From Xanthomonas sacchari (lineage in GTDB: Bacteria > Pseudomonadota > Gammaproteobacteria > Xanthomonadales > Xanthomonadaceae), in the NCBI RefSeq assembly GCF_024266585.1, contig NZ_CP100647.1:62001-126000 (forward strand): a stretch of 64,000 nt of DNA, given 5' to 3'. Under the pieces are notes generated by a model. It saw only the letters and a program-made list of their open reading frames with translations, made no database searches and was not told the DNA's origin. Below are positions 42,749-44,172 of this stretch, piece by piece. Each line of letters begins with the position of its first letter. Within the stretch, counting starts at the first letter, position 1. A program made the translations under genes and the position numbers.

Positions 42749-42770
42749 GCCCGTCGCGGCTGAAGCCGCT
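42749..42770. repeat. Left half of a REP split by the IS110-family element
   Basis: GCCCGTCGCGGCTGAAGCCGCT ends at the element's left border; its continuation CCTACAGG lies at 43919-43926 beyond the right border. Joined, they give a typical REP palindrome (reverse complement CCTGTAGGAGCGGCTTCAGCC followed by GCGACGGGC). Confidence 0.8.
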
Positions 42771-42985
42771 TGTGTCAAATGAGGGTCTATCGTTATAGGT
42801 GAGAGCGGAGTGCGGCAGGCCGTTTAGCCGCAGTGCCAGCAAGCACGAGTAGGAGTCAGCGCCGCCGCACCCCGTATCTCCTGCCTCATCAGCCCGAACA
42901 GTTGCCCGAGTCGCGAGCTCGAACTCCACAAGCATGGGCATCGGCAGGAGTGCTCTCGTTCCTGAGTCTACTGCGGAGAACGTCT
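42771..42985 (+). ncRNA. Candidate bridge RNA region of the IS110 element
   Basis: The 5' non-coding end of IS110 elements encodes a bridge RNA whose loops pair with target and donor DNA (shown for IS621). Here AGCCGC at 42826-42831 repeats the left half-target AGCCGC at 42764-42769. GTAGGAGTCA at 42849-42858 is the exact reverse complement of TGACTCCTAC across the right border (43914-43923). Left guide in sense and right guide in antisense orientation, 17 bases apart, is the layout of a target-binding loop. RNA ends and structure were not computed. Confidence 0.65.
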
Positions 42986-43909
42986 ATGCGGCGCTATGTC
43001 GGGATCGATGTATCCAAGGCCGAACTGGTCATTCATGTCCTGCCGGACGAGCAGGCCTGGACCCAACCCAATACGCCACAGGGGCAGCGTGCGCTGGCCC
43101 AACGCCTGGCGGCGCTGGGCTGCGAGCGGATCGTGCTGGAAGCCAGTGGCGGCTACGAACATGCCGTGCTGCAGGTACTCCGAGAGGCGGACCTGCCGGC
43201 AGTGCGGATGGCCGCCGATCGTCCGCGCAAGCTAGCCCAAGCCTTGGGCCTGCAGGCCAAGACCGACGCCCTGGACGCGCGCCTGCTGGCCATCGCCGCC
43301 CAGCACATCCCGGCCACGCCCACGACCGTGGTGCCCGAGCATCTTCAGTCCCTGCGCGAACTGCTGGACCTACGCGCCACCCTGGTGGGCCAGCGCGATG
43401 CCCATCGGCGGCGCCTGGAGCACATCACCAGCGCCAAGGTGCAACGCCGCTGCCGAGAGGTGGTCGCCCTGCTGAACCAGCAGATCCAGACATTGACGCA
43501 GGAGATCGAGCAGCAGGGCAAGACCTGCTCGAGCTTGCCCAAGGTGCCTGGGCTCGGCACGATCCTGCGCGCGGTCCTGGCCGCGCGGTTGCCAGAGCTG
43601 GGCACGCTGCCGCCACGCAAGCTCGCCGCCCTGGTCGGGCTGGCCCCGTTCAATCACGACAGCGGCTGCTGGAAAGGCCAACGTCGCATCAAAGGCGGCC
43701 GTGCCGACGTGCGAGGCGTGCTGTACATGGCCACCTGGGCCAGCATCCGCGCCAAATCCCCCTTGGCCAACACCTACGCGCGCTTGCGCGCGGCCGGCAA
43801 GCCGGCCAAGGTCGCCATCGTCGCCTGCATGCACAAGTTCCTGCGCTGGCTCAATGCCATCGCGCGCGATCAGGCACCGTACGCCCCTCCGGTTATCGCT
43901 GGGGCATGA
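42986..43909 (+). CDS. IS110-family transposase (RuvC-like DEDD recombinase)
   Basis: This 307-residue protein starts at the ATG at 42986 after CGGAGAA. The N-terminal DEDD_Tnp_IS110 domain begins RRYVGIDVSKAELVIHV (first Asp) and includes the second acidic residue in VLEASGGYEHAVL and the aspartates of KTDALDARLLA. A coiled-coil region follows (around 140-185), then the Transposase_20 domain (KVPGLGTILRAVLAARLPEL, LVGLAPFNHDSGCWKGQRRI) with the candidate catalytic serine. It is complete and looks functional. It is somewhat shorter than many IS110 enzymes. Guided by a bridge RNA, such enzymes recombine DNA through the CT core. Confidence 0.93.
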   Translation: MRRYVGIDVSKAELVIHVLPDEQAWTQPNTPQGQRALAQRLAALGCERIVLEASGGYEHAVLQVLREADLPAVRMAADRPRKLAQALGLQAKTDALDARLLAIAAQHIPATPTTVVPEHLQSLRELLDLRATLVGQRDAHRRRLEHITSAKVQRRCREVVALLNQQIQTLTQEIEQQGKTCSSLPKVPGLGTILRAVLAARLPELGTLPPRKLAALVGLAPFNHDSGCWKGQRRIKGGRADVRGVLYMATWASIRAKSPLANTYARLRAAGKPAKVAIVACMHKFLRWLNAIARDQAPYAPPVIAGA

Positions 43910-44172
43910 CAGTTGACTCCTACAGGACACTTCTCGTCGGACGACGCGGTGGTGCCTCCGGGCCGAGATTCGCCATCCAGCCCCTCACCCTGCCACCGCA
44001 GCGCCCGCTTCAAGCGGACAGCCGCCCCGATGGTCTTCCCCGCTGCACCTATCGGCCCCGTGGCCTTCATCCAGGCCATGCCAGCGCACCGCGCACATCG
44101 CTCCCGCCACGGCCGCCCCGCCGGCGCTCGGGCTAAGATGCGCGCGGTGACCACCTGCGCCCGCCCCTGCTG

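Follow-up and report, generated by a model that had tools for sequence, protein, structure and literature searches.

An IS110-group insertion sequence in the REPs of Xanthomonas sacchari and the bridge RNA predicted in its left end

REP-targeting elements of the IS110 family and the element in X. sacchari

IS110-family elements that target REPs are known already, as are bridge RNAs, and the described cases include IS621, ISPpu9, ISPpu10 and ISPa11 (PMC1525189, PMC11208160, PMC11187229). IS621 of E. coli is described as a member of the IS110 group with a CT core and a long left end that holds the bridge RNA (PMC11208160, PMC11208158), in which the left guide pairs with the bottom strand and precedes the right guide, which pairs with the top strand. 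Its insertions lie at the CTAC edge of REPs, its recombinase has the DEDD and Ser residues, and trimming of the RE-LE junction takes away the -35 of its promoter (PMC11208160). ISPpu9 and ISPpu10 of P. putida are also IS110-family elements in REPs (PMC1525189, PMC8450116). ISPpu9 makes Asr9, an antisense RNA that spans the 5' UTR of tnp and is reported to be very stable, with a promoter reaching into tnp, and the loss of Asr9 reduced tnp translation (PMC8450116). The same element has detachable, end-flanked ssr9 units, some of them tandem in a related strain, and orphan ssr9 units are described outside REPs in KT2440.

The window, i.e., the whole 64,000-nucleotide stretch analysed here, comes from the 4.89 Mb genome of a Xanthomonas sacchari strain, and its positions 42771-43918 hold an IS110-group element of 1148 bp between the CT cores, one core counted. 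We estimate at about 95% the probability that this is an insertion sequence of the IS110 group and carries a REP-targeting bridge RNA in its left end. The layout, all on the plus strand, is a 215-base left end with the predicted bridge RNA and the 5' UTR (42771-42985), a 307-codon recombinase gene (42986-43909) and a right end of only 7 bases, CAGTTGA (43910-43916). The core dinucleotide CT is present at 42769-42770 on the left and at 43917-43918 on the right; outside it lie the left part of the interrupted REP (GTCGCGGCTGAAGCCG, 42753-42768), with a similar flank at 11 of 11 copies, and the right part, CCTAC (43919-43923). The earlier note had described an IS110-family element placed precisely in a REP, with CT at both borders and flanks that recreate a REP when joined, and the border, copy and protein evidence bears this out: the joined flanks read GTCGCGGCTGAAGCCG-CT-CCTAC, and the REP 14-mer GAAGCCGCTCCTAC is common genome-wide, with 214 exact occurrences as compared to one for a reversed-pattern control.

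The long left and short right ends (215 and 7 bases) are those of the IS110 group, and a short subterminal inverted repeat, TGACA / TGTCA, surrounds the donor in the window element; read by eye, GACA / TGTC recurs in most relatives with REP and attC-like targets and was unseen in a third group. The 307-aa recombinase matches Pfam PF01548 (DEDD_Tnp_IS110) and PF02371 (Transposase_20), and among solved structures it matches IS621 (E 1.2e-17, 67.5 bits) and ISCro4 (E 5.5e-20). Its D8, E52, D94, D97 and S226 align with the catalytic set of IS621, given as D11, E60, D102, D105 and S241 (PMC11208158), so that a DEDD RuvC domain and a Tnp domain with the catalytic Ser are both present, and all five residues are kept in 26 of 26 aligned relatives. 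IS621 and the window element differ in that their sequences are distant (67.5 bits) and their REP and donor are not the same. ISPpu9 and ISPpu10, for which an AG direct repeat is reported, are likened to the window element by description and not by sequence. The genome also encodes a second, distant IS110 recombinase at 27% identity (L042, G000:C1:4604177-4605019).

The predicted bridge RNA spans 42797-42962 on the plus strand, its ends being placed by a terminal helix of GAGAGC (42801-42806) and GCTCTC (42952-42957). The left target guide AGCCGC (42826-42831) and the right target guide GTAGGAG (42849-42855) are followed by a donor loop, which the earlier note does not mention. Its left donor guide, ACAGTTG (42898-42904), repeats the right end in the sense direction, and its right donor guide, CACAAG (42927-42932), is antisense to the CT-TGTG of the left border. 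Two loops matching target and donor are thus found, with the sense guide first in the order of IS110 and not of IS1111 as these are described (PMC11187229). As compared to the published description of IS621, the right guide here pairs seven bases, GTAGGAG with CTCCTAC, and the RNA closes on the GAGAGC/GCTCTC helix. Each of the four motifs occurs once in the left end, and no dinucleotide shuffle out of 20,000 contains all four; the pair of target guides by itself turns up in 95 of 20,000 (0.5%), which is moderately unlikely. Against this reading, the core T faces an A in the left guide (AGCCGCA).

The left guide had been noticed before as a copy of the left half-target, and the sense/antisense arrangement as that of a target loop; both observations hold, and the guides also track the targets across related elements. 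The ten-base GTAGGAGTCA, which the earlier note took as the exact reverse complement of the right border, has to be shortened: GTAGGAG stands, and the last three bases, TCA, do not belong to it. Because the partner of TCA is a TGA that belongs to the element itself, at the filled right border, and not to the empty target, the true right guide has a length of 7 nt. In relatives whose right end differs, CCA or CAA stands where the window element has TCA. Assignment to the IS1111 group was rejected on a right end of 7 bases and guides upstream of tnp, since IS1111 elements have a long right end, long subterminal repeats and the RNA downstream.

Related elements, RNA structure and the antisense strand

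The search of 247 family genomes gave 39 with a relative at E <= 1e-20, and the genus search gave 14 of 20 genomes at E <= 0.001. From the 39 family genomes, the genus search, three named loci and one further locus, 107 elements were read, and both borders were readable in 90; the other 17 were dropped for lack of a left motif (5), a right end (3) or a stop codon (3), or for N or a short flank (6). All 90 have CT, partly by construction because the border patterns included CT. Their targets fall into three classes: 70 are of the REP type, with the right half CCTAC in 69 and CCCAC in one; 12 are attC-like, TAAC(G/A)C-CT-GA(A/G)TTA; and eight are of a third type, CT-CAG, with little else shared. 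We take the second class to be attC-like from recognition of its flanks and not from an integron search. Left ends clustered at 93% gave 20 types, with L099 (a partial left end) excluded.

A conserved secondary structure was found in the REP group. Over 16 REP-type RNAs, a 39-pair structure had 94.1% of cells paired as compared to 32-54% with partners slid; it was hand-written and derived in part from folding the window copy, so that the comparison with the slid versions is biased towards it. Eleven pairs have changed on both sides, independently of that bias, and four of five measures lay above all 500 shuffles; the exception was the count of further pair types, 24 as compared to a shuffle mean of 23.7, with 290 of 500 shuffles as high. 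The single-sequence fold had a z of -2.21 for the sense strand and -3.35 for the antisense strand. Support was weaker on a mixed alignment: with the REP and attC-like groups combined, the covariation term from RNAalifold was only -1.16, and the target-loop stem was missed because the groups were out of register. The earlier note had held that a left end with no conserved structure would speak against a bridge RNA, and the compensatory changes in relatives show the opposite.

Joining the right end to the left end creates TTGACT-17 bp-TATCGT in the window element, from the -35-like TTGACT at 43913-43918 and the -10-like TATCGT at 42788-42793, both on the plus strand. The junction pattern TTGnnT-17-TAnnnT is present in 18 of the 20 left-end types and absent from the two of the third type. 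The -35 is TTGACT in five of the 18 and TTGCTT, with 3 of 6 matches, in 13; integration lowers it to 0-2 of 6 matches, and a promoter search of the integrated stretch found none, an arrangement similar to that described for IS621 (PMC11208160). From these features we infer a cycle of transcription, circle formation and catalysis. The element would leave as a circle that joins TTGACT to the -10, and the junction would then switch on a transcript with both the bridge RNA and the recombinase mRNA. The target loop (AGCCGC, GTAGGAG) would pair with both REP strands, the circle junction would be bound in like manner by the donor loop (ACAGTTG, CACAAG), and the recombinase would exchange strands at CT, leaving the element in the REP with its promoter broken again.

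The minus strand of the left end, at 42796-42960, is antisense to the bridge RNA and weakly matches RF02234 (sX15), a Xanthomonadaceae sRNA entry in Rfam, at 30.5 bits (E 0.0076), below the gathering score of 55. The IS110 left ends of some relatives score above gathering, with up to 152.3 bits over the full model length. The searches of relatives with RF02234 did not report the window's genome at E <= 0.001 or the window locus (L001) at E <= 0.05. Matches were present in 49 of the 247 family genomes, 31 above the cut-off, and in none of 14 control genomes. Forty-eight sX15 loci, part of all hits, were studied, and five end at a contig end, leaving 43 that were testable. Forty of these adjoin a complete or partial IS110 ORF that runs on the opposite strand: in 37 the ORF begins at a distance of 23-32 nt from the 5' end of sX15, and in three it is partial; three loci have none, and among these L258 retains a gene stub by our reading of the locus. 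Since 40 of 43 loci stand beside a complete or partial IS110 ORF, sX15 in these relatives is, by comparison of sequences, the antisense strand of the bridge-RNA locus. This link was not found in the open-access literature searched, in which one Xanthomonas-related paper naming sX15 merely lists it. L262 and L263 carry the same solitary sX15-like sequence with no IS110 gene and share their flanks, i.e., one site in two genomes, and this is apparently a shared relic. A comparison of another sX15-like sequence, L074, with the plasmids of PLSDB gave no match.

The strand of sX15 was reportedly given, and its expression reportedly confirmed by Northern blot, in the 2012 source study on X. campestris pv. 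vesicatoria 85-10. It may act as an antisense regulator in the manner of Asr9 of ISPpu9. We tentatively suggest, as a possibility short of an even chance, that sX15-type transcripts are natural anti-bridge RNAs, made from an internal promoter that is active when the element is integrated, complementary to all four guides and tuning the recombinase; in the same tentative proposal, the mini-elements described below would suggest a machinery acting in trans that builds CT-joined tandem arrays. It is about equally doubtful that the sX15 match is a mere mirror of a self-complementary bridge RNA, with Rfam on the wrong strand and no antisense transcript. Both strands fold at the z values given above, and the antisense -35 is unrecognisable, both of which suit a mirror. 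However, the Rfam matches are antisense to the recombinase in the window, in four loci from relatives and in the 40 loci of the full count, and a -10-like hexamer lies on the antisense strand upstream of the start in the 18 left-end types with REP and attC-like targets, without a clear -35; in the window it is TAGACT (42965-42970, minus strand). Asr9 of ISPpu9, moreover, is described as a measured and abundant antisense RNA over the tnp 5' UTR (PMC8450116). With the reading of sX15 as the antisense of the bridge-RNA locus, a so far orphan sRNA family of Rfam is given a proposed identity, and it becomes testable whether bridge RNAs are controlled by a full-length antisense RNA. What the present analysis adds is this identity, the finding that related elements fall into three natural classes by target, and the mini-elements.

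Copies, empty sites and mini-elements

The genome search found 11 full copies: the window copy and five others, whose identity rounds to 100%, and five more with 97-98%. All 11 lie at one REP position, with GAAGCCG-CT (GGAGCCG in one) on the left and CT-CCTAC on the right; copies at unrelated sites, which the earlier note had named as evidence against REP targeting, were not seen among them. A copy in X. sacchari R1 (95.8% protein identity) likewise lies at CCG-CT / CT-CCTAC.

Orthologous sites without the element could be read for two copies. At 2246404, the REP pair stands without an element in all four relatives that share the left flank, and the right arm is CTCCTAC in G013 and has a one-base difference in G007, G010 and G011. 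At 3859128, six of 14 matched relatives were read: G006, G007 and G009 have the REP pair without an element, and in G009 the target is exact. A separate copy in G010 occupies the other REP of the pair and is oriented the opposite way, and the REP pair is missing from G011 and G013. For the window copy no orthologous empty site was found, the intergenic region being different in the five relatives compared.

The earlier note had called the element probably active, and the six nearly 100% identical copies and the insertion of a sister species in the other REP arm make activity plausible at the sequence level. That the element is dead, its copies being fixed relics or having been multiplied through homologous recombination of REPs, is very improbable: REPs are abundant, which would suit such an origin, but six nearly 100% identical, intact copies stand in different flanks, the ends are precise, orthologous sites lack the element, and in one REP pair both arms have been hit, each in a different species.

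Shorter units with the ends of the element were also found. These mini-elements of about 125 bp begin CT-TGTGTC and end in CATGACAGTTGG-CT, with one-base variants in the array, and each carries a second class of REP-like palindrome. One of them (L014, G000:C1:4677600-4677724) lies in a REP at the IS110 element's own target site, and four units matching the end pattern, together with a decayed fifth, form a head-to-tail array joined at CT (L172, G000:C1:4658939-4659561). The pattern of both ends 85-115 bases apart was matched in one of 20 genus genomes, the X. sacchari of the window. The mini-elements are short non-autonomous units, to which the ssr9 units of ISPpu9 are probably parallel. A dispersed repeat (e.g., L174-L188) has two REP classes and a linker and often ends in a sequence like CATGACAGTTGACTCC, which closely resembles the right end of the IS110 element, and a related 110-bp tandem array has 8.2 copies (L189). 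A fragment of about 70 bp (L012, G000:C1:243340-243409) consists of a REP edge joined to the left end up to about its 53rd base; similar fragments recur in G005, G009, G015 and G016, ending at nearly the same position.

Guides and targets across related elements

Stem anchors were available in 18 of the 20 left-end types, L106 and L110 being lost for want of one, and the guides of the 18 were scored by identities only in fixed windows set from the stem sequences. The left guides (LTG) matched their own targets at 103 of 126 positions and the right guides (RTG) at 123 of 126, counts that overstate independent events as the related elements share ancestry. The own total of 226 compares with a permuted mean of 180.3, and none of 100,000 target permutations was as high; this signal rests largely on the three target classes. 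Within REP targets alone, the left guides matched at 60 of 77 positions, and 468 of 100,000 permutations were as high. Poor left guides were present in G170, G236, G177 and G106 (4 of 7) and in G117 and G043 (5 of 7). Anchor-free matching that allows wobble gave only a weak difference (own sum 274, permuted mean 254), and the high GC content of the left ends made it a poor means of telling the groups apart.

The least probable alternative, that the protein itself picks the REP DNA or hairpin and the guide matches are leftovers or coincidence, fits the REP-type sites of all the closest relatives, the 0.5% of shuffles with both target guides, and the AATTCAG guides at GAGTT targets (L107, L109, L110) and GTCGC guides at GAAGCCG targets (G014, G015, most of G017), which are tolerable only as G-U pairs, but it was rejected on the covariation of guides with targets: the guides change with the target between groups, which were themselves defined by target and left end, AACTCAG guides go with GAGTT targets in L106 and L108, GTCGC guides go with G(A/G)AGTCG targets in five of six G003 copies, and the third-type targets share CT-CAG and little else. 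Targeting by the predicted bridge RNA is legible from genome comparison in this multi-copy natural case, with relatives at REPs, attC-like sites and a third site, and it should be useful for picking recombinases that tolerate guide changes.

The attC-like group, L104-L111, L114 and their relatives, has the guides TAAC(G/A)CC and AATTCAG or AACTCAG. It resembles the IS1111-attC elements ISKpn4 and ISPst6 in targeting attC-like sites and differs from them in the place of the guide RNA, which is described as downstream of tnp with a reverse guide order in IS1111 (PMC11187229) and lies upstream here. The third group (L115, L159-L165) has CT-CAG sites in varied flanks, with donor ends and a donor guide of its own. 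The donor guides covary as well, with ACGGTTA at both the right end and the loop of the third group and ACAGTTG in the others.
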